Below, in pieces: positions 43,062-54,005 of a stretch of DNA of 64,000 bases (the stretch's first letter is position 1; every line of letters starts with the position of its first letter). A model generated the notes under the pieces. The model was not told where the DNA came from, ran no database searches, and was given only the letters and a program-made list of their open reading frames with translations. Both the position numbers and the translations under genes were made by a program. Source of the stretch: Arthrobacter ulcerisalmonis (GTDB lineage Bacteria; Actinomycetota; Actinomycetes; Actinomycetales; Micrococcaceae); the NCBI RefSeq assembly GCF_900609065.1, contig NZ_UXAU01000013.1, positions 62,001-126,000 of the forward strand, given 5' to 3'.

Positions 43062-43727
43062 CTAGTCGAGGGGCCGGACGTGGACCATGATGACGCGTGA
43101 GCCTGTTTCGCCGTTGAAGCGCAGGTCGTAGGTGACCTCAAGGCCCGTGCTGGTCCCCGCGGTGATGGCAAAGTCGCTCTTCCCGCTGGGATCCGCCTCG
43201 GTGCCGGAAATCCAGCGTTCGGCGGAGCCGGCATCGATGCCATAGCGTGTCACGGCATCACGGATCAGGCCGAAATACTCTTGGTCTGACGCAGCGGTCA
43301 GGAAGAACGTGACTTCGCTGAAGTCGGACCGGCTTGCAGTGGTGTTGAACCGGATCCGGTCGGTCTGCGCGGTGATCTCCCCATCGGGCGCCGTGATGCT
43401 CAAGGCGATCTTGCCGGCGTCGCGGGTGTTGATCTCCGGGCCAAAGCTGTCCGGGGTGACCTGGACGGCGGACTTTTCCAATTTGCCCGAGCTCATGTCG
43501 AGTTTCGCTGCGCCGGACGCGCGGATGCTGTCCACGCCGGCGGCGTCCAGGGTGGAGAATTCGGAAGTTTTCACGGTGCTCTCCTGCGAGGTGGGGCTGG
43601 TGGTGGGATCTGGGACGGATTGGCAGCCACTCAAGGCCAGCCCGGCTGCAACGACCGGAAGGATCAGGCGGACGACGGCGGCCCGCCGCTTTGATGATTG
43701 AGTGTCGGGAGGGTGCGGCCAGGTCAC
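43062..43727 (-). CDS. Secreted lipoprotein partner of the WXG100 protein
   Basis: The 221-residue protein has a basic N-terminus (SSKRRAAVVRLI), a hydrophobic stretch and lipobox ALSGC with Cys35, then a Thr/Ser-rich linker. The mature domain is beta-rich, resembling LppX/LprG-like or DUF-type lipoproteins, but no family is recognised. Its ATG overlaps the stop of the WXG100 gene (ATGA), so the two are made together. It could be a membrane-anchored partner, a chaperone or an immunity factor for the upstream protein; that is inference from position. Confidence 0.68.
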   Translation of the reverse strand: MTWPHPPDTQSSKRRAAVVRLILPVVAAGLALSGCQSVPDPTTSPTSQESTVKTSEFSTLDAAGVDSIRASGAAKLDMSSGKLEKSAVQVTPDSFGPEINTRDAGKIALSITAPDGEITAQTDRIRFNTTASRSDFSEVTFFLTAASDQEYFGLIRDAVTRYGIDAGSAERWISGTEADPSGKSDFAITAGTSTGLEVTYDLRFNGETGSRVIMVHVRPLD

Positions 43728-45220
43728 TGGTGCACCTCCGCGCCGAAGCCGTCAACGAACCGATCCATGATGCCCGGAATGTTGTTGGTGGGCCGGTACT
43801 GCTCCACCCGGTCATCGAAGCTCGAGCCGATGATGGCGGCTGCCCGGTCCGGGTCGGTGGCCAGTAGGTTTTGGTAGGCGGGCAGGGTGTCCTGGCGGAT
43901 GAGTTCCCAGCGCTGGTCCGCATTGGCAATGTTGCCGTCAGGGAAGCCAGTGGTGAAGTCGGTGCGGAACTGGGTGGGGTTGTCCCAGTTGGTAAAGGGA
44001 ACGTTCTGCGGGCCGGGGCTTTCGACGCTGAACGTATAGGGGAACACTTCCGGGTAGCTCTTGGCCCCCGGGATGGACGGTTCGCCCGCCAACGTGACCA
44101 GGTACGTAACGGCTTCGCCACCGGGATGGCTGCGCATCGCGTCGTAATCATCGGCGATGATCTCGTTTTGCTCGCGGTACAACAGTGAGGTGTTGCCTTC
44201 TTGGACGCGGTCCGGGTCGCCGGAGGCGATGTCGGCCCACGCATCGGCGGTGCCGGCGTCGATGGCTCCTGAATCGCGGAGCCGGTTGATCTCCTCGATT
44301 CCGCCGGTTTGGTAGGCCTGGTGCTGCCGGGCCTGGTCGAGGAAGATTTCCTTGTTCATGTCCAGCATGCTGGTTTCGTAGAACCGGATTTCCTCATCCG
44401 TCATGGTGGCGAGGTCTTCGATCTGGTCCAGGATGGGCAGTGGCACGTCTGAGACCGGATTGTTGGCGATCTGCTGGGCGATGTCCCTGAGCATTGCCAT
44501 GTCTCGGAAGCCGCCCGCAAAGGACGGGCCGATCATGTTGGCCATGCCTGCCCACTGGAGGTCAGGGTTCGCGAGGTACGCCTGGCCGTAGTAGTCGTAG
44601 ACGCTGCGAATGGTGTCCCAGTTGGCCTCGGTTCCCTTCGCGGTGTCCCAAGCGGCCAGGTCGATGCCCATGTCCAGCAGGGCCTGGTTGTTCCAGTAGG
44701 AACTGAGGAAGGTGGCGTACTCCCGCGAGTTCTTCTCGATCAGGCCGGAGTCGGCGGCCGCGTCCATGGCGGCCTTGGCGGCGTCAGGATGAGCCAGCGC
44801 CCACTCGCTGAACTCCTGGCTCTGCAGGTAGGCGGCCCGCTCATCGGGCGTCATCGCGGTGAGCTTGTCCGTCAGTGCCTGCGCCGCTGCGTCGGTGTCA
44901 CCCGGGCCGGGTCCGCTAGATCCCGGGCCGCCTGAACCCTGTCCAGCCGAACTGCTGCTGGCCTTCTCCTGCTCGTCGGCGTTGGCTAGCAGCGCCTTGG
45001 CCGCAGCTTCCAGTCCGGCGGTAGCGGACTTCAAGAATTTCACATGACTGCCGGTCCAATCGCTCCGAAACCGATCGGCGTCGCGCCCCTTCCAAGGGCT
45101 TGCACCGATGGTCCCGCCCAACTGCTGGCTGAGCGTAGTGAGGCGGGTGGCGCCGCCAGTAAGTTCTTTGGCGAGTTGCCGGAGTTGGGCAACATCGCTG
45201 CCATAGAAAGTCCCCGCCAT
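43724..45220 (-). CDS. WXG100-domain protein with large conserved C-terminal region
   Basis: The 498-residue protein begins with a helical WXG100-type hairpin (residues about 1-95) with turn motif SPWKGRDADRFRSDW (Trp43-Lys-Gly45). A Gly/Ser/Pro-rich linker (about 96-115) follows, then a 380-residue mostly helical C-terminal region with MTPDERAAYLQSQEFSEWAL, QWAGMANMIGPSFAGGFRDM and LAGEPSIPGAKSYPEVFP. The last pattern is conserved in actinobacterial proteins I recall only as uncharacterised. It is built like a type VII-exported effector. GGAGGGACAC precedes ATG. No ESX core gene is present in the window. Confidence 0.72.
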   Translation of the reverse strand: MAGTFYGSDVAQLRQLAKELTGGATRLTTLSQQLGGTIGASPWKGRDADRFRSDWTGSHVKFLKSATAGLEAAAKALLANADEQEKASSSSAGQGSGGPGSSGPGPGDTDAAAQALTDKLTAMTPDERAAYLQSQEFSEWALAHPDAAKAAMDAAADSGLIEKNSREYATFLSSYWNNQALLDMGIDLAAWDTAKGTEANWDTIRSVYDYYGQAYLANPDLQWAGMANMIGPSFAGGFRDMAMLRDIAQQIANNPVSDVPLPILDQIEDLATMTDEEIRFYETSMLDMNKEIFLDQARQHQAYQTGGIEEINRLRDSGAIDAGTADAWADIASGDPDRVQEGNTSLLYREQNEIIADDYDAMRSHPGGEAVTYLVTLAGEPSIPGAKSYPEVFPYTFSVESPGPQNVPFTNWDNPTQFRTDFTTGFPDGNIANADQRWELIRQDTLPAYQNLLATDPDRAAAIIGSSFDDRVEQYRPTNNIPGIMDRFVDGFGAEVHQ

Positions 45221-46100: not shown

Positions 46101-46991
46101 ATGACTTCTGCTGGCCGATTCGCGCCGAGCCCTTCCGGGGACCTCCATGTAGGCAATCTCCGGACGGCTGTCCTGGCATGGCTCTTCGCCAGGTCTACCG
46201 GCCGGCGCTTCCTGATGCGGGTAGAGGACCTGGACCGGGCGCGGGCAGGTTCTGAAGCGACGCAACTCCGTGATCTGGCCGCTCTTGGCCTTGATTGGGA
46301 CGGTGGCATCGTCCGTCAGACGGACCGCTCTGGGCTGTATGAGAATGCCATCCAACAGCTGGCAGCCAGCGGACTCACCTACGAATGCTTCTGCACTCGG
46401 CGCGAAATCCAGGAGGCGCCGTCGGCCCCGCACGCGCCGCTGGGCGCCTACCCGGGCACCTGCAGGGAGCTCAGCCGCGCCGATCGCGCCGTTAAAAGCG
46501 CCAGCAGGCCCGCGGCAATCCGGCTCCGCGCAGCAGTACAAAGCGTCACTGTCCAGGATGGCCTGCGCGGCACGTACCGGGGGGTGGTGGACGATTTTGT
46601 GCTCCGGCGTAACGATGGTGTGACCGCCTACAACTTGGCGGTGGTGGTGGACGACGACGCACAAGGAATTGACCAGGTGGTCCGGGGCGACGACCTGTTG
46701 CCGTCCACTCCCCGGCAGGCGTACCTCGGCTCTCTCCTGGGTATTCCAACACCGGAATACTTCCACGTTCCGCTGGTGCTCAATGCTGCCGGGGCACGGT
46801 TGGCTAAGCGGGACGGGGCCGTGACGCTGACCGATCTGGCGGCTTTGGGGATGCCAGCCGAAACGGTCCGGGAGCTGATCCTTGCCTCACTGGGACTGGC
46901 CGCTCCGTCCCTGGCGGGCGCGCTCGCAGACTTCCACCCGGCTCGCCTGCCCCGTGAACCGTGGATATGGCAGCAACCGACCGGCCAATGA
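46101..46991 (+). CDS. gluQ: Glutamyl-Q tRNA(Asp) synthetase
   Basis: The 296-residue protein is a short glutamyl-tRNA-synthetase-like enzyme lacking the anticodon-binding domain. RFAPSPSGDLHVGNLRTAVLAW is the HIGH-type motif region, LMRVEDLDRARAG follows, ECFCTRREIQ...YPGTCREL holds the Cys/His zinc ligands, and LAKRDGAVTLTDL is the KMSKS-type loop. GluQ-RS attaches glutamate to the queuosine base of tRNA-Asp. The next gene starts 15 bases later in the same direction. A long hairpin lies in its leader. Confidence 0.93.
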   Translation: MTSAGRFAPSPSGDLHVGNLRTAVLAWLFARSTGRRFLMRVEDLDRARAGSEATQLRDLAALGLDWDGGIVRQTDRSGLYENAIQQLAASGLTYECFCTRREIQEAPSAPHAPLGAYPGTCRELSRADRAVKSASRPAAIRLRAAVQSVTVQDGLRGTYRGVVDDFVLRRNDGVTAYNLAVVVDDDAQGIDQVVRGDDLLPSTPRQAYLGSLLGIPTPEYFHVPLVLNAAGARLAKRDGAVTLTDLAALGMPAETVRELILASLGLAAPSLAGALADFHPARLPREPWIWQQPTGQ

Positions 46992-47006: not shown

Positions 47007-47741
47007 ATGCCAGCAGATCAGCCAGACGAGTCCATGCCCAGATTCACCGTAGCCACCGCCCGCGTGTTGGCCGAGGTGGCCCACGACCGGCAAAAGGACA
47101 AGCTCAAACGCCCTTACCGTGAGCACGTGCTGGCAGTAGGGGACGCATTGGCGGATTTCGACGACGACATCCAGATCGCGGGCTACCTGCACGACATCGC
47201 CGAAGACACCCCCATGACCAGGCAGGCGCTGCTGGAGATGGGCGTCTCCGAGCGCGCCGTGGAAACCATTGAACGGCTCACCAATCGCCTGCATGAGAAC
47301 CCGGACGACTACGCCGCCATCATCCGTGAGATCGCCGATGACCGCGATGCCACGCTCGTCAAGATCGCAGACAACGCGCACAATTCGTTGCCCGAACGCG
47401 TCAAAGCCCTCGCCGCGAAGTGGCCAGGCAAGCCGCCAGTCACAAAATACCGCGACGCCCGCCCGGTCCTTTACGCTGCCGTGCCTGCAGAGGACGTCCG
47501 CATGATTCTGGAACGCATCAACCCGTGGCTGCTGCCGGTGCTCGACAAGTTGTCCGCCGTCGATGATGGCGACGACGACAATAACTACGCGGACGCCGGC
47601 GCCGCTGCCGACGGCGCCAACGCGGCCGATACTGGCAGGGACGCCACTAGCTCACACGCTGATGATGACAACACAGCCGACAGCGCTGCCGACGACGTTG
47701 CTGATGCTGACAGTGACGCCGACGCTGTCAGCGGTTCCTAG
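47007..47741 (+). CDS. HD-domain hydrolase, RelA/SpoT-like (possible small alarmone hydrolase), with acidic tail
   Basis: The 244-residue protein has an HD fold in residues 30-135. PYREHVLAVGDALADFDDD provides the first His (His40), AGYLHDIAEDTPMTRQALLEMG the His62-Asp63 pair, and LVKIADNAHNSLPERVKAL the last metal ligand. These match the (p)ppGpp hydrolase pattern (LHDVVEDT; KLADRLHN), so it may hydrolyse alarmones or another nucleotide. There is no synthetase domain. From about residue 185 the protein becomes a 60-residue Asp/Ala-rich low-complexity tail. It overlaps the convergent AAA+ gene by four bases. Confidence 0.78.
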   Translation: MPADQPDESMPRFTVATARVLAEVAHDRQKDKLKRPYREHVLAVGDALADFDDDIQIAGYLHDIAEDTPMTRQALLEMGVSERAVETIERLTNRLHENPDDYAAIIREIADDRDATLVKIADNAHNSLPERVKALAAKWPGKPPVTKYRDARPVLYAAVPAEDVRMILERINPWLLPVLDKLSAVDDGDDDNNYADAGAAADGANAADTGRDATSSHADDDNTADSAADDVADADSDADAVSGS

Positions 47742-49102
47742 ACTCGCCCCAGCGCGTCGATATCCACCAGGAAGTCCTCGTGGACCTCTGCGCTGACGGT
47801 GGTTCGGGTCTCGCTGATGGCGTCTAGGTAGTCCTGGGTGACGGGGCCGCGCCGGGTGGTTGCTCCCGTTCGAGAGGTGCGGGCGCCAGTGTGGTGGGCG
47901 GTGCCAGTACCCCCGGACCTGTCGGTGCCCTCGAAGTCGGAACCGCCGTCGTCGTACACCGCTTTTTCCAGCGCGCGCTGGGAAGCGCTGCGGGCTGCGT
48001 ACTCGATATCAGCGGGCGAGAACCCCTCAGTACGTTCCACTAGGAGTTGCACGTCAACGGAGTCGACGACGGCCTCGGGGATGAAGCGCTGCCACATGGC
48101 TCCGCGCGCCTGCCGGTCCGGGAGGCCGATCGGAATGACGTAGTCGAAGCGGCCGTGCCGCAAGAACGCAGTGTCTAGCGCGCGGATGAAGTTGGTGGCG
48201 CAGACAAGCAGCCGGCCGGGTTGCTCGCGGAACGTAGGAATGATTTTCAGCAGCTCGTTCGTGACGCCTTGCAAGGGAGACGGTGGCTCACCGGATCGTT
48301 GGGAGGCAATTTCCTCCACCTCGTCGATGAACACCACGGCATGCTCGAGTTCCGCGATCTCCAGAAAAGTCTCGCGGAGGGCGCCAGCCAGGCCTTGCGG
48401 ATCGGCCGCGAGCCGGCTGGGGAAGACCTCGACGAATGGCCATTCCAACCGGGAGGCGATGGCCTTGGCGAAGGTGGTCTTGCCCGTACCGGGCGGGCCG
48501 AAGAGCACCACCGCCCGCGGCGGCACCACGCCAAATTCGTCGGCGAGGTCGGCCTCGGCCAGCGGAAGGACAAGCCGACGTTCCAGGAGCTCCTTTTCCT
48601 TGCGCATACCGGCAACGTTTTCCCAGAGGTCACGGGCCAGGACCCTGCCGCCCAGCTGACCGAGCGCGCCGAGCTCCTGGCGCTGGACAGGAATGGTCCG
48701 TTCGAAATAGCGTAGGTTCTTTTTCAGCGCAAAACCGCGACCAAGGAAGGCTTCCACCCGGGTTTCGGACTCCGGCATGAGGGCCGAGAGCTTGTTGAGT
48801 CCATGCGGTGCCATCCGATGTTCCACAGCGGCCAACAGGGACGTGCCGATGCCCCGGCCGCGGAACTCGGGCAGGGTGGCCAGGAAAACGATCCAACCCT
48901 GGTCGTGGGCGGCGCGACCTACTGCGGCACCCACCACCTGATCGCCCTGCACCGCCACCACGGCATGGTCCTTCTCGCAGGACGCAAGGACCTCGGACAG
49001 GGCGTAGACCGGTTCCACGTTGGTGGCCTTGAGCGATTCCCAGAGGTGCAGGATGCCGTCCAGGTCAGCCGAATGGAAATCCCTGATGCGCCAGTTGGTC
49101 AT
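47738..49102 (-). CDS. GNAT acetyltransferase fused to an AAA+ ATPase
   Basis: The 454-residue fusion has an N-terminal GNAT domain (residues 1-135) with IVFLATLPEFRGRGIGTSLLAAVEHRM (acetyl-CoA loop) and VEAFLGRGFALKKNLRYFER. A helical link follows, then a Cdc48/FtsH-like AAA+ domain: Walker A GPPGTGKT at residues 202-209, Walker B VVFIDEVEEI, sensor-1 LLVCATNF, Arg-finger region LRHGRFDYVIPIGLPDRQAR, and a small helical lid with GFSPADIEYAARSASQRALE. The last 60 residues are Thr/Gly-rich then ordered. GGGAGGGAAGCC precedes ATG 49102. It may acetylate a substrate and unfold or remodel it; no protease domain is present. Confidence 0.85.
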   Translation of the reverse strand: MTNWRIRDFHSADLDGILHLWESLKATNVEPVYALSEVLASCEKDHAVVAVQGDQVVGAAVGRAAHDQGWIVFLATLPEFRGRGIGTSLLAAVEHRMAPHGLNKLSALMPESETRVEAFLGRGFALKKNLRYFERTIPVQRQELGALGQLGGRVLARDLWENVAGMRKEKELLERRLVLPLAEADLADEFGVVPPRAVVLFGPPGTGKTTFAKAIASRLEWPFVEVFPSRLAADPQGLAGALRETFLEIAELEHAVVFIDEVEEIASQRSGEPPSPLQGVTNELLKIIPTFREQPGRLLVCATNFIRALDTAFLRHGRFDYVIPIGLPDRQARGAMWQRFIPEAVVDSVDVQLLVERTEGFSPADIEYAARSASQRALEKAVYDDGGSDFEGTDRSGGTGTAHHTGARTSRTGATTRRGPVTQDYLDAISETRTTVSAEVHEDFLVDIDALGRV

Positions 49103-49170
49103 GGCTTCCCTCCCGGGAGGTTCGTCGTTGAACATGCGAGGTCGTGGGAGGTCTGCCCGCGTAAGGCAAG

Positions 49171-49211: not shown

Positions 49212-50729
49212 TTACTTGTTCTTGAATGTGTCTGCCGGTGGATTGGCGATGACGGGAGCTGTGCCGGTGAATCCCTGCCGGGTGCTGGCGATTTCCCTGA
49301 TCCGTTTCCGGCAGGCAAACCAGCCCACCACCATCAGGGCCGAGGCGATGCCGGTGACGAGCATGGTCAGGGGTGAATCGATGAACACCATGATCAGCAC
49401 ACCTACCAAGAACAGCAGCGAGAGGTATCCGGTGTAGGGGGCGCCGAACAGTCGGAAGCTGGGCCGCTCCAACCAGCCCTTGTCGGCCCAGCGCTTGAGT
49501 TGGAGTTGGCACAGGACGATGGTGGCCCACGTCATGATGATGCCCACGGAGGCGACGTTGAGGACGATTTCGAACGCGTCGGCGGGGACTAGGTAGTTCA
49601 GTGGGACGCCGAGGAGGGACACTGCGGCGGTGATGGCAATGCCGCCGTACGGGACGCCGGCCTTGTTCATCCGGGAGGCGAACTTGGGGGCCGAGCCGTT
49701 CACGGACATGGAACGCAGGATACGCCCGGTGGAGTACAGGCCGGCATTCAGCGAGGACAGTGCTGCCGTGAGGACCACCAGGTTCATGATGACGTCCACG
49801 CCTTCAACCCCGATGGAGCCAAAGAACGTCACGAACGGGCTGACGCCAGCCTGGTAGGACGTGTACGGCAGCAGGAGGGCCAGCAGGATGATGGAGCCAA
49901 CGTAGAACACGGCAATCCGGAAAACTACCGAGTTGATGGCCTTGGGCATGATCTTGTGTGGGTTTTCCGTCTCGCCGGCTGCGGTGCCCACCAGTTCAAT
50001 GGAGGCGTAGGCGAACAAGACACCTTGCATGAGGATGATCATGGGCAACAGGCCGTTGGGGAAGATCCCGCCGTTGTCGGTGATGAGGGTCAGGCCCACT
50101 TCTTGGCCGTCCACGGGGGTCCCGAAGATGACGAAGTAGGTGCCCACCAGGAGGAATGCCACGAGGGCGGCGACCTTGATCAGGGCGAACCAGAATTCCA
50201 TCTCGCCGAAGACTTTCACGGACACCAGGTTCAGACAGAGGACTACGACTAGGGCGATCAGCGCCCACGCCCACTGCGGGACGGCAGCCATCCAGGGGAC
50301 GTAGTTGCCGAAGAAGTTCATGTAAATGGCGGCGGCAGTAATGTCCACGATGGTGGTGGTGGCCCAGTTGATCCAGTAGAACCAACCGGAGACGAACGCG
50401 GCCTTCTCGCCGAAGAACTCGCGGGCATAGGACACGAACGAACCAGACGAAGGCCGGTGCAAGACAAGCTCGCCGAGGGCTCGGAGGATCAGGAACGCGA
50501 AGAAACCACACACCGCGTAAGCAATGACCAGCGACGGGCCGGCCTCAGCCAAACGGCCACCAGCACCGAGGAACAACCCGGTACCAATAGCACCGCCGAT
50601 CGCGATCATCTGGATCTGCCGCGGCTTCAGGTTTTTGTGATACCCCTGGTCCTCGGCGTGGAGGGAGTTTTCACTGGCGTGCGCATGGCCACCATCAATG
50701 ATGTGGTCAGGAATGGGGGGATTAGTCAT
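49212..50729 (-). CDS. ansP: L-asparagine permease (AAT/APC family)
   Basis: The 505-residue protein has 12 membrane segments typical of the amino acid transporter family: [25 protein letters not shown] at helix 1, [23 protein letters not shown] in helix 3, and [19 protein letters not shown] at helix 6 with the conserved Glu. The [13 protein letters not shown] pattern matches asparagine/GABA-type permeases. Its place at the end of an asparaginase-aspartase operon supports asparagine uptake. GGAAGGAAACTCCC precedes the ATG. A hairpin follows the stop. Confidence 0.9.
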
Positions 50730-50755
50730 GGGAGTTTCCTTCCGAGGTGCCGGGC

Positions 50756-52198
50756 TCAGGCCAGCTGCTGGTTGCTGAGGTTTGCGAGGCGTTCGGGGCT
50801 GAGGAGTTCCTGGAGCTGAACGGAGGTGAGCAGTCCCTTTGCAAGGACCAGCTCTGCCACACCCTGCCCAGTTGCGAGGGCTTCCTGGGCGATGGCGGTA
50901 GCGGTGGCGTAGCCCAGTTGGGGGTTCAGGGCGGTGACAAGGCCAATGGATTGTTCCACCGTACGGCGGAGGTGTTCGGTGTTGGCGGTAATTCCCCGGA
51001 TGCAGCGTGCCGTGAGGGTGCGGCAGGCTGCTTCGAGGTGCGAGATGCTCTTGTGGAGACTGTGCACAATGATGGGTTCGAAGGCGTTGAGCTGGAGTTG
51101 TCCGGCTTCGGCGGCCATGGTGATGGTGACGTCGTTACCGATCACTTCATAGGCCACTTGCGAGACAACTTCCGGGATCACGGGGTTGATCTTGCCGGGC
51201 ATGATGGAGGAACCTGACTGGACAGCAGGCAGGTTGATCTCACCGAAACCCGCGCGGGGGCCTGAGGAAAGCAGCCGGAGGTCGTTGCAGATCTTGGACA
51301 GTTTCACGGCGACGCGCTTGAGGACACCGGAGAGGTGCACGAACGCGCCGACGTCCTGGGTGGCTTCGATCAGGTCCGGTGCGGTGACCAGGGGCAGACC
51401 GGTGATGGCGGCCAGGTGCCGGCAGGCTGCCTCGGCGTAGCCAACGGGGGCGTTCAGGCCGGTGCCGATCGCTGTGGCGCCGAGGTTGATCTCGTGGATC
51501 AGTAGTTCAGCTTCGGAGAGCCGGAGCCGGTCCTCGCCGATGGTGATGGCGTAGGTCCCGAATTCCTGCCCCAACGTCATGGGGACAGCGTCCTGCAGCT
51601 GGGTCCTGCCCATCTTGACCACCGTGCGGAACTCAAGGGCCTTGGTGGCGCATGCTTCTTCCAGTTCGGCCAGTGCGTCGAGGAGTTCCCGGGCGGCGAA
51701 GATGGTGCCGAGCTTCACCGCCGTGGGGTAGACATCGTTGGTGGACTGGCTGAGGTTCACGTGGTCGTTGGGGTGCAGCCGGGCGTAGTCACCCTTCGCA
51801 TGGCCCAGGATTTCCAGCGCGCGGTTGGCGATGACCTCGTTGGCGTTCATGTTCGACGACGTCCCGGCACCGCCCTGGATCACGTCCACCACGAACTGGT
51901 CGCTCAGTTGGCCGGCCATGATTTCGGTGCAGGCCTGCTCGATCGCGGTTGACCGCTCAGCGTCCAGCAGGCCCAGCTCGCGGTTGGTCCGGGCGGCAGC
52001 AAGTTTCACGGCTGCCAGGCCGCGGACCAGGTGCAGGTTGGAGGCTAGCTTCTGGCCCGTGATAGGGAAGTTCTCTACGGCGCGGAGCGTGTGGACGCCC
52101 CAGTAGGCAGCTGCGGGGACGTCGCGGTCACCGAGCAGGTCGTGCTCGGACCGCAACGCGGGGAGCGCTGCGGATTCTTCGGTCTGGGTGGTGGTCAT
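50756..52198 (-). CDS. aspA: Aspartate ammonia-lyase (aspartase)
   Basis: The 480-residue protein has the fumarase/aspartase fold: [20 protein letters not shown] near the N-terminus, [35 protein letters not shown], and the signature [15 protein letters not shown] with the catalytic Ser. It deaminates aspartate to fumarate and ammonia. It follows the asparaginase gene after eight bases and precedes the asparagine permease, completing a route from asparagine to fumarate. GAGGACCAGC precedes ATG 52198. Aspartase rather than fumarase is inferred from this context and [15 protein letters not shown]. Confidence 0.92.
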
Positions 52199-52206
52199 GC
52201 TGGTCC

Positions 52207-53259
52207 TCACGGGGCTTCGTTGACGGGCTTGGACGGGGCGGGGCCGGTTGGTTCCGCCCGGGTAAGAAAGTCGGTGGCCTGTAGGCGGCCCACAGGGTGG
52301 CCGCCGCCCAGGACGGGTGCAGTGGCAATGGCTGCAAGGGGTTCGGTATTCACTCCGAGGGCCTCGAGGAGGGCGACCGTGGCGGGCATTCTGGCGCGAT
52401 CGCCGCCGTCGGAAATTTTCACGGCCACGGCGCGGCCATCGGGGAGGCCTACCAGCTGCACTCCTTCGAAACCGTCTTTTGCCACCGATCCGGGGAGTAG
52501 GCGCATGAGTGCGGTGACGTCCCTGCTAACGCCGGCCACCATATCCGGGTGCTGCTGCATGGCGAGCCCGACGGCGGCTTCCGCACTGCCGTCGTCGGCC
52601 GCTGCGGCTTGGGCGATGAGGCCGAAAGCGCGGGCCATGCCGCGGAGGGTGAGCGCAAAGAGCGGGGTGCCGCAGCCGTCAGTGCTGAGCGCTGCGGGTT
52701 GCTCGCCGGTCAGTTCGGCCACGGTGGCGGCGACGAGCTGCTGCAGCGGATGGGTGGGGTTGAGGTAGCCCTGGACAGGCCAGTCGTTGATGACGCAGGT
52801 GGCCACCATGGCGGCATGTTTGCCCGAGCAGTTCTGCGTCACCTGCCCGGCGCTGCCGCCGTGCCGCAGCCAGTCTTCCCGCTCGGCCACGCCGTAGGGC
52901 AGATCGGTGCTGTTGGCGAGGTCCGCAACGCTGCGACCGTGCAGGGTGAGAGTGCGGACGGCGCCGTCGCGGTGCTGGGCCGCGCCGGAGTGGCTGGCGG
53001 CTGCCAAAGCCAGGAGATCCGCGGGCAGGACCAGTCCCGCCCGGACCATCGCCACGGCCTGCAGCGGCTTCAGCGAGGACCGGGGATAGAAAGGAGCCAG
53101 CGGTTCGCCTGCAGAGGCCAGGATTGCGCCATCTGCGCCCACGGCGATGGCTGAGCCGTAGTGGATGCTTTCCACGAGGCCGTCGCGGGTGGCGGCGACC
53201 AGCGGGACGTGCCGGGCAAATCCTGCCTCGTGGGCAGCGGAAATCGTGGGGGAGTCCAT
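52207..53259 (-). CDS. L-asparaginase, Rhizobium etli type
   Basis: The 350-residue protein belongs to the R. etli-type asparaginase (Asparaginase_II) family, unrelated to the E. coli type. Motifs seen are PRSSLKPLQAVAMV (Ser61/62-Lys64), AAASHSGAAQHRDG, TQNCSGKHAAMVATC (Cys144 and Lys147) and LSTDGCGTPLFALT (Cys196). The Cys-x-x-Lys plus distant Cys set corresponds to the zinc site known in the R. etli enzyme. It hydrolyses asparagine to aspartate and ammonia, the first step of the operon. CCAAGGACACC precedes the ATG. Confidence 0.9.
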   Translation of the reverse strand: MDSPTISAAHEAGFARHVPLVAATRDGLVESIHYGSAIAVGADGAILASAGEPLAPFYPRSSLKPLQAVAMVRAGLVLPADLLALAAASHSGAAQHRDGAVRTLTLHGRSVADLANSTDLPYGVAEREDWLRHGGSAGQVTQNCSGKHAAMVATCVINDWPVQGYLNPTHPLQQLVAATVAELTGEQPAALSTDGCGTPLFALTLRGMARAFGLIAQAAAADDGSAEAAVGLAMQQHPDMVAGVSRDVTALMRLLPGSVAKDGFEGVQLVGLPDGRAVAVKISDGGDRARMPATVALLEALGVNTEPLAAIATAPVLGGGHPVGRLQATDFLTRAEPTGPAPSKPVNEAP

Positions 53260-53282
53260 GGTGTCCTTGGGTGGGTGCGGAG

Positions 53283-54005
53283 TCAGTTATTAAGAATGGA
53301 GTCCAGGGCCAAGCCAACGGCATCGAGGTGCCGGGCCATGGCGGCGCGGGATTCTTCGGCAGAACCGGATTCAATGGCCGCAACAATGAGCTGGTGTTCA
53401 CGGTCTGAGGCGTGCTGGCGGTCAGCCACCATGTTGAGGGTTTCGGACTGGTGCGCCATGGCTTCGCGGATATCCGTCACCACTTTGGCGAAGACCTTGT
53501 TTCCGCTGGCAATGGCGATGGTGGCGTGGAAGCTGGCGTCCAGGGACACCCAGGCTTCGAGATCGTTTTCTGTGGCCATCTGGGCCACGATCTGGTGCAG
53601 CGTTTCGACTTCCTCGGCGGTTCGACGCTCAGCTGCCAGCCCAGCAGCCGGGATTTCGATGTGGGGGCGGGCTTCGGTGAGGTCCCGTGCCGAGTATTGG
53701 CCCAGCGTGAGGTCGTTGGCCACCTTGTTGGCCACCACGAACGTGCCCTTTCCCGTTTTGGTCACGGTGAGGCCCAAAGCCGTGCAAGACCGCAAGGCCT
53801 CGCGGATGACTGAACGGCTGACGCTGTAGCGCTGGGACAGTGCGGCCTCGGACTCGAGCTTGGTGCCCAACGCCAGGAATCCCGACTCGATTTCTGCGCG
53901 GAGGGTTTTGAAGACAGCTTCGGCGGCACTGAGCCGGGTAAGCGGCGGGGCTGCGGCGCTACGCGGGACGGGCTGTCCTGCTGTCCGGCTGTCTGACAGG
54001 TTCAC
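53283..54005 (-). CDS. FadR-type GntR regulator of the asparagine operon
   Basis: The 240-residue protein has a GntR winged helix in residues 25-95: AEAVFKTLRAEIESGFLALGTKL, SEAALSQRYSVSRSVIREALRSC, and GKGTFV as the wing. The all-helical FCD domain follows, with DLTEARPHIEIPAAGLAAER and DASFHATIAIASGNKVF; His residues there form the usual metal/ligand pocket. It is the first gene of the group and is followed 23 bases later by the asparaginase gene, so it likely responds to asparagine, aspartate or fumarate. GTG at 54005 is the start. Confidence 0.88.
   Translation of the reverse strand: MNLSDSRTAGQPVPRSAAAPPLTRLSAAEAVFKTLRAEIESGFLALGTKLESEAALSQRYSVSRSVIREALRSCTALGLTVTKTGKGTFVVANKVANDLTLGQYSARDLTEARPHIEIPAAGLAAERRTAEEVETLHQIVAQMATENDLEAWVSLDASFHATIAIASGNKVFAKVVTDIREAMAHQSETLNMVADRQHASDREHQLIVAAIESGSAEESRAAMARHLDAVGLALDSILNN

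Follow-up and report, generated by a model that had tools for sequence, protein, structure and literature searches.

What is a GNAT acetyltransferase domain doing at the front of an AAA ATPase? The question is raised by a stretch of 64,000 nucleotides from the Arthrobacter ulcerisalmonis contig NZ_UXAU01000013.1 (the window), in which one minus-strand open reading frame (ORF; 49102..47738), uninterrupted over 454 amino acids, encodes both. The two folds are among the best understood, and their union is kept in every searched genome of the genus and scattered over the phylum. A sequence-only reading of the gene had described a GNAT domain fused to an unfoldase-type ATPase, called the two rarely joined, and proposed either that acetylation is coupled to remodelling of a protein or that the GNAT part recognises a substrate. 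We confirm that the fusion is real and is conserved in one protein; the earlier interpretation as a whole is partly supported. Because the catalytic tyrosine of the GNAT half is missing while the motor looks fully active, judging by its conserved residues, we propose a probable role for the GNAT domain in steering or regulating the motor, in place of ordinary acetyltransferase activity.

The ORF is a real protein-coding gene. Pfam finds Acetyltransf_1 (PF00583) at residues 32-107 with 46.5 bits against a cut-off of 20.7, AAA (PF00004) at residues 198-326 with 86.7 bits against 21.2, and AAA_lid_3 (PF17862) with 29.6 bits against 27.2. The acetyl-coenzyme A (acetyl-CoA) loop within residues 1-135 and the Walker A, Walker B, sensor and lid elements further on are present as they had been named: RGRGIG at 81-86, GPPGTGKT at 202-209, VVFIDE at 256-261, ATN at 302-304, and R315 and R318. 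The full-chain AlphaFold2 model, made with 60 family members, has a mean predicted local distance difference test score (pLDDT) of 90.9 and a predicted template modelling score (pTM) of 0.80, and is weak at about residues 386-420 (pLDDT about 50-74 per ten-residue block); its alignment was drawn from the 70 rows below 90% identity, of which 65 (without L099, L119, L121, L148 and L173) and then 60 were used. Throughout, L and G numbers denote loci and genomes of our searches, and L001-L009 are loci of the window's own genome. The family alignment of 172 rows comprises the window protein and 171 loci from L010-L181, L145 having been dropped as partial; since these rows are rich in Arthrobacter and hold some genes twice, the 42 rows below 80% identity (the representatives) are the fairer denominator. 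Median dN/dS (the ratio of nonsynonymous to synonymous substitution rates) within the genus, over 600 random pairs from 81 same-genus rows, is 0.054 for residues 1-135, 0.031 for residues 159-340 and 0.34 for residues 386-420; from the low values we conclude that the GNAT and AAA halves are both under purifying selection. Pfam matches, structure models and dN/dS together rule out an artefact or chance ORF. We favour the ATG start at 49102, which has a GGGAGG ribosome-binding-like stretch directly 5' and a Met counterpart in several relatives (L104, L115, L135, L137), over a longer one at 49135.

How widely is the fusion kept? It occurs in all 36 same-genus genomes searched, although in G026 and G030 the gene is divided between reading frames, and in the order a long match that takes in both domains was obtained for 3 of 22 genomes (G042, G046, G047). 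The class search (E limit 1e-35) found it in 54 of 393 genomes and 17 of 122 genera, the own genome included; every best match starts at residue 1-6, so the GNAT domain is included in these matches. The phylum search (E limit 1e-33) matched 35 of 396 genomes and 28 of 241 genera, again with the own genome, and 34 of these genomes count as members: G558 was rejected, its match (33% identity, in a 607-residue frame) being limited to residues 159-380 in the AAA part, and in G504, close to the edge of a contig, the match begins at residue 47. The best 80 of at least 547 relatives in the contig search are Arthrobacter and near relatives, and outside the genus the distribution in Actinomycetota is patchy. 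Surveyed in this way across actinobacteria, the architecture is less rare than had been supposed. Bacteria beyond Actinomycetota were covered through the plasmid and phage collections only. The plasmid collection gave 23 matching records at E 1e-30, 21 of them with query coverage of 80% or more and all from actinobacterial genera; at E 1e-10 the phage collection yielded 51 records, none of which reaches 80% coverage, and we reject a phage origin. Some relatives carry the RefSeq-derived name 'bifunctional GNAT family N-acetyltransferase/ATP-binding protein', so the architecture has already been noted in annotation; no study of a GNAT-AAA fusion is among the papers listed by title and abstract searches, which in the open-licence literature covered is weak evidence of absence.

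The two halves do not occur as separate genes in most relatives. The genus, class and phylum searches gave no confirmed AAA half without a GNAT domain (stand-alone GNAT halves, which would fall below the E limits of the class and phylum searches, were not searched), because the four apparent exceptions are broken copies and were rejected as GNAT-less members. Three are frame-split, with both halves present in different frames in G214 (L145), G026 (L183) and G030 (L184), and represent broken or mis-sequenced fusions; the fourth, G633 (L182), has pieces of residues 122-449 in three frames with no GNAT core matched, and is a degraded copy. The L145 genome also holds an unbroken fusion copy. Three same-genus genomes have a second fusion copy elsewhere (L154, L155, L156), 59-61% identical to the window protein.

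The ATPase half has the Walker A and B motifs, the sensor-1 Asn, the two arginine fingers and the lid of a classical AAA ATPase. G202, G205, G207, K208, D260, E261, N304 and R315 are unchanged in 172/172 rows, and R318 in 171, the sole exception being L148; among the 42 representatives, too, these residues are constant but for one position in one row. Of the proteins with solved structures, VCP-like ATPases and Cdc48 come nearest to this half in sequence (phmmer E 9.6e-60 to the VCP-like ATPase 5vc7). By structure, the VIA comparison aligns the AAA part and C-terminal helices with CDC48A 9m3w over 288 residues (Z 26.8, root-mean-square deviation, rmsd, 3.0), and among the 50 matches listed those to CDC48A, spastin, FIGL-1, Vps4 and p97 have Z of 24.5-26.8. 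Mean pairwise identity among the 42 representatives is 0.62 for the ATPase and 0.35 for the GNAT domain. Since arginine fingers work across subunits in known AAA rings, an oligomeric ring is likely here too.

The term 'unfoldase-type' fits this motor less well. Threading AAA unfoldases (Cdc48 D2, FtsH, PAN) have an aromatic-hydrophobic-Gly pore loop 1, and this pattern is absent from the window protein, whose pore loop 1 reads SRLAADPQGLAGA; AADPQG stands there opposite the KYYG / KWVG of the aligned VCP-like ATPase. Residues 229-241 contain no Phe, Trp or Tyr in 165 of the 172 rows. Such loops are compatible with remodelling: according to PMC5385338, the canonical pore motif is missing from two kinds of Rubisco activase that are nonetheless active as remodellers, the plant enzyme, which recognises its client by the N-domain, and green-type prokaryotic AfRcaI/HnRca, which work with an adaptor. 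At the other end of the chain the penultimate residue, followed by one final residue, is Arg in 172/172 rows, which excludes the HbYX proteasome motif. The VIA alignments with the ends of Cdc48 D2, Vps4 and spastin extend to residues of about 448-454, from which we infer that R453 is part of a subunit-contacting, Cdc48-D2-like C-terminal helix, with a docking motif as the alternative. In p97, a C-terminal Arg has a role between subunits.

The GNAT half, with its Pfam match above cut-off and its fold, belongs to the GNAT superfamily. Modelled alone it reaches a pLDDT of 91.2 and a pTM of 0.86. Its best Foldseek match is YpeA 2pdo (E 5.7e-11, template modelling score 0.79), which is also the closest solved GNAT by sequence (E 4.2e-8) and has the same CoA loop in the alignment; VIA places Ard1 2x7b first (Z 16.5, rmsd 2.6, 129 residues aligned) and finds YpeA 4qus at Z 14.8 (rmsd 2.6, 131 aligned). 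GNATs usually carry their last two strands where residues 121-139 fall. DSSP assigns no strand to these residues in either model, full-chain or GNAT alone, although the structural alignments extend to 135-139. The CoA loop itself changes state at least five times on a tree of the AAA side (53 rows, 15 without the loop), which was built from residue 136 onwards by a quick method and counts changes of state, loss and regain being indistinguishable. Loss is clear in L110/L131, L111, L166, L167, L169, L170, L173, L174, L177, L179 and L180; six of these form one supported clade. Given the intact ATPase of these rows, lineages seem to have dropped the CoA loop without harm to the motor, with the reservation that some cases are mild (Arg replaced by His, or the last Gly by Pro, Ser or Val).

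Tyr-type GNATs have a catalytic Tyr four residues before the motif-B Gly, a spacing that we read from the Y128A primer of PhnO in PMC6199490; according to PMC8556138 and PMC6199490, RimI, YiaC, YjaB and PhnO need this Tyr and became inactive when it was removed. At the corresponding column, four before Gly123, the 172 rows have Phe (111), Leu (60) or Met (1), and no row has a Tyr anywhere at positions 117-121. For comparison we read the other GNATs of the same genome by regular expression (30 of 31 PF00583 matches taken; motif B readable in 20, including the fusion gene), and Tyr is present in 11 of the 19 readable others. The general-base Glu of GCN5 and PhnO, in beta-4, presumably lies 11 residues before the CoA loop, that is at column 70 here; at this presumed spacing the rows have Trp (166), Glu (3) or Arg (3). 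The same spacing in the control genome has Glu in 5/26 and Trp in 1/26 other GNATs, so a missing Glu is common there and only the constancy of Trp at column 70 stands out. Acidic or basic GNAT residues kept in at least 90% of rows are R7, D13 and E94 only, and these look structural by position.

We give about an even chance to the reading in which the protein is a self-contained AAA remodelling ATPase whose GNAT N-domain serves for recognition or acetyl-CoA sensing. It would act as a stand-alone, single-ring ATPase of the classical clade that remodels a specific client, with the GNAT domain in the place held by an adaptor or N-domain in other AAA proteins. There it may recognise the client, sense acetyl-CoA (or CoA), or both; recognition, the second of the earlier proposals, fits better than coupled acetylation. 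The motor may pull on the client to a limited extent or change its conformation instead of unfolding it processively, with R453 acting between subunits within the C-terminal helix, and acetyl-CoA would regulate the machine in lineages that have the CoA loop. A bolder version, which we think rather unlikely, makes it an acetyl-CoA-gated machine: the non-catalytic GNAT would be an acetyl-CoA/CoA gauge on the N-face of the Cdc48-like ring, carbon or energy status would switch client remodelling, and the loop-less lineages would be ungated.

Several observations weigh against a non-catalytic GNAT on a non-threading motor. The CoA loop, [RQ]xxGx[GA], is kept in 150/172 rows and 30/42 representatives, so that the acetyl-CoA residues are far from lost in all homologues, and Glu134 is kept in 34/42 representatives. 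In addition, human GCN5 and PCAF have a Phe in place of the Tyr (PMC8556138). Because the loop is so widely kept and Phe replaces Tyr in those two enzymes, the GNAT may still be catalytic. On the motor side, six rows of one genus (g48; L122, L128, L141/L161, L144/L163) read 'AEYG', with its Tyr, around the pore loop, L109 carries a Phe in this stretch, and p97 D1 likewise lacks a strong pore aromatic, yet is part of an unfoldase.

The obvious rival is a bifunctional enzyme, in which the GNAT domain acetylates a lysine, N-terminus or other amine exposed by the ATPase and acetylation is coupled to ATP-driven remodelling. TmcA offers a formal parallel, as it combines a GNAT with a helicase ATPase and acetylates tRNA. 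The purifying selection on the GNAT half and the CoA loop of most representatives agree with this idea, as do the Foldseek and VIA matches to acetyltransferases, among them YpeA 4qvt with acetyl-CoA bound; moreover, bacterial GNATs use several catalytic strategies, some without a catalytic Glu (PMC8556138). What makes it doubtful in our judgement, if still a possibility, is the absence of the usual Tyr from all 172 rows, the Trp of 166 rows at the presumed general-base spacing, the lack of a widely kept acid or base beyond three structural-looking residues and E134, and the perfect ATPase of lineages that have no CoA loop. A canonical threading unfoldase with the GNAT as substrate-binding N-domain, which might hand proteins on to a protease such as the actinobacterial proteasome, would suit the kinship to VCP-like ATPases and Cdc48 by sequence and to Cdc48 by fold, the kept arginine fingers, and PAN as the best NCBIfam match. 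That match is nevertheless below cut-off (126.4 against 500 bits), as is pup_AAA (61.5 against 504.75), the pore-loop aromatic is missing from all but seven rows, and proteasome docking through HbYX is rejected by the penultimate Arg, which is never Tyr. Peptidase genes are near single members only (Lon at L193, a weak trypsin-like gene at L140, ClpP at L131, and an M4 peptidase with a hydrogenase maturation protease at L135), none recurring; altogether we regard this explanation as distinctly unlikely.

Still less probable, indeed barely credible to us, is an IetA-type defence or mobile-element ATPase whose AAA part acts on a protein of an invader. IetA is the best PADLOC model (100.9 bits) and relatives are on the 23 actinobacterial plasmid records; the PADLOC match, however, is confined to the AAA core (residues 182-378), the protein reaches 96.9 of the 510 bits required by the NCBIfam IteA model, the gene is in every same-genus genome searched, and 0/51 matching phage records cover 80% of it. 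The partner IetS is of the subtilisin type, and no subtilisin-type gene is named in the annotated regions examined.

Cdc48/p97, VAT, spastin, FIGL-1 and Vps4 share with the fusion protein the AAA core, AAA_lid_3, two arginine fingers and a C-terminal helix after the lid. It differs from Cdc48/p97, VAT and the meiotic-clade proteins (spastin, FIGL-1, Vps4) in having one AAA module, a GNAT domain in place of the usual N-domain, a mostly non-aromatic pore loop 1 and, between lid and C-terminal helices, a variable segment of 35 residues. YpeA, in turn, is single-domain, whereas the fusion rows have Phe, Leu or Met at the Tyr column and an AAA module. With the Rubisco activases (plant Rca; AfRcaI/HnRca) our protein shares the lack of an aromatic-hydrophobic-Gly pore loop, a functional analogy only; they have no GNAT domain. 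TmcA/NAT10/Kre33 also join a GNAT and a P-loop ATPase in one chain, the ATPase being of the RNA-helicase type and not AAA; these gave no match in the searches run with the fusion protein, and a family missing from the VIA lists is not thereby excluded. The bacterial regulated GNATs of types I-V (Pat, cAMP-GNAT, ACT-GNAT, Eis) likewise combine a GNAT with another domain. In those the partner regulates an active GNAT, while in the fusion the GNAT seems to serve the partner. The term 'AAA' occurs 0 times in the available text of a review on types I-V (PMC8556138).

Should the GNAT domain prove to be a sensor or adaptor, the acetyltransferase label under which such proteins are entered in databases would mislead, and Actinomycetota would hold a metabolite-gated AAA remodeller. 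An invariant motor, with the loop missing in some lineages, would allow a loop-keeping and a loop-lacking member to be compared. The features of the gene are collected in the table.

Table. Features of the GNAT-AAA fusion gene (positions in the window; residues of the encoded protein)
Feature	Position	Strand	Basis
GNAT-AAA fusion gene	47738..49102	-	ORF listing, translation, Pfam; 454 residues + stop
GNAT domain, residues 1-135	48698..49102	-	Pfam PF00583, AlphaFold2 model, Foldseek, VIA
Acetyl-CoA pyrophosphate loop R81-G-R-G-I-G86	48845..48862	-	[RQ]xxGx[GA] motif
AAA ATPase large subdomain and lid, residues 159-385 (module from about 140)	47948..48628	-	PF00004, PF17862, VIA
Walker A, G202-T209 (GPPGTGKT)	48476..48499	-	G202, G205, G207, K208 in 172/172 rows
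Pore-loop-1 region without aromatic, residues 229-241	48380..48418	-	Alignment to VCP-like ATPase
Walker B, residues 256-261 (VVFIDE)	48320..48337	-	D260, E261 in 172/172 rows
Variable low-confidence segment, residues 386-420	47843..47947	-	pLDDT, dN/dS
C-terminal helix pair, residues 421-454, with penultimate R453	47741..47842	-	Model helices 422-431 and 438-451

Does a neighbouring gene supply a partner? The fusion gene lies 109 bp downstream of a same-strand amino-acid permease gene, with no terminator-like site between them; the best NCBIfam model for the permease is L-asparagine permease, below cut-off. A promoter scan around the fusion gene gave 0 promoter-like sites, and the single terminator-like site just beyond its end (47693-47676, minus strand; 1.1 expected) is not convincing. 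From the other side an HD-domain gene (47007-47741, plus strand) converges on the fusion gene with a 4-base overlap. Within the genus, genes for LtrA, a Pyr4-like membrane protein, the HD protein and GluQRS recur near the fusion: among the 80 close-relative loci (L021-L100), GluQRS is found at 35, the permease at 33, HD at 31, LtrA at 27 and the Pyr4-like protein at 18. At loci L104-L137, mostly short (L104-L129 have only about 4 kb), the GluQRS, permease, HD and LtrA clusters occur at 0 and the Pyr4-like cluster at 1. The tables behind these counts (loci L009-L137) are rough, several clusters being antisense ORFs. Among 44 distant loci with longer flanks, where the fusion gene was recovered in 37 and the other 7 are uninformative, no neighbour cluster is present at more than 3; five clusters of real-looking genes and one antisense frame occur at 3 and none at 4. 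A Pfam scan of 20 neighbours showed no common theme. The earlier statement that no partner is in the operon therefore holds in the wider sense that none was found recurring across lineages.

In the window, an amino-acid permease, an aspartate ammonia-lyase and a GntR-type regulator stand in a row at 49212-54005 (minus strand) that looks like an Asn/Asp catabolic cluster; within it, a 350-residue gene (52207-53259) has no NCBIfam match. The HD protein matches PF01966 with 25.2 bits, and has a RelA/SpoT-like region and a long Asp/Ala-rich tail. Beyond it lies GluQRS, the tRNA glutamyl-Q(34) synthetase (46101-46991, plus strand; NCBIfam 326.4 bits against a cut-off of 250), and then a minus-strand gene (43724-45220) for a 498-residue protein with a DUF2515 match (25.8 bits against 24.3) and a weak N-terminus resembling type VII secretion signals and WXG100 proteins, below cut-offs. 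On the Rhodococcus plasmid pDK2 (L136, 2814-10851) the fusion gene lies between Hsp20 genes and genes for a Dyp-type peroxidase and an encapsulin shell, and L150 also has a Dyp peroxidase gene near the fusion gene.

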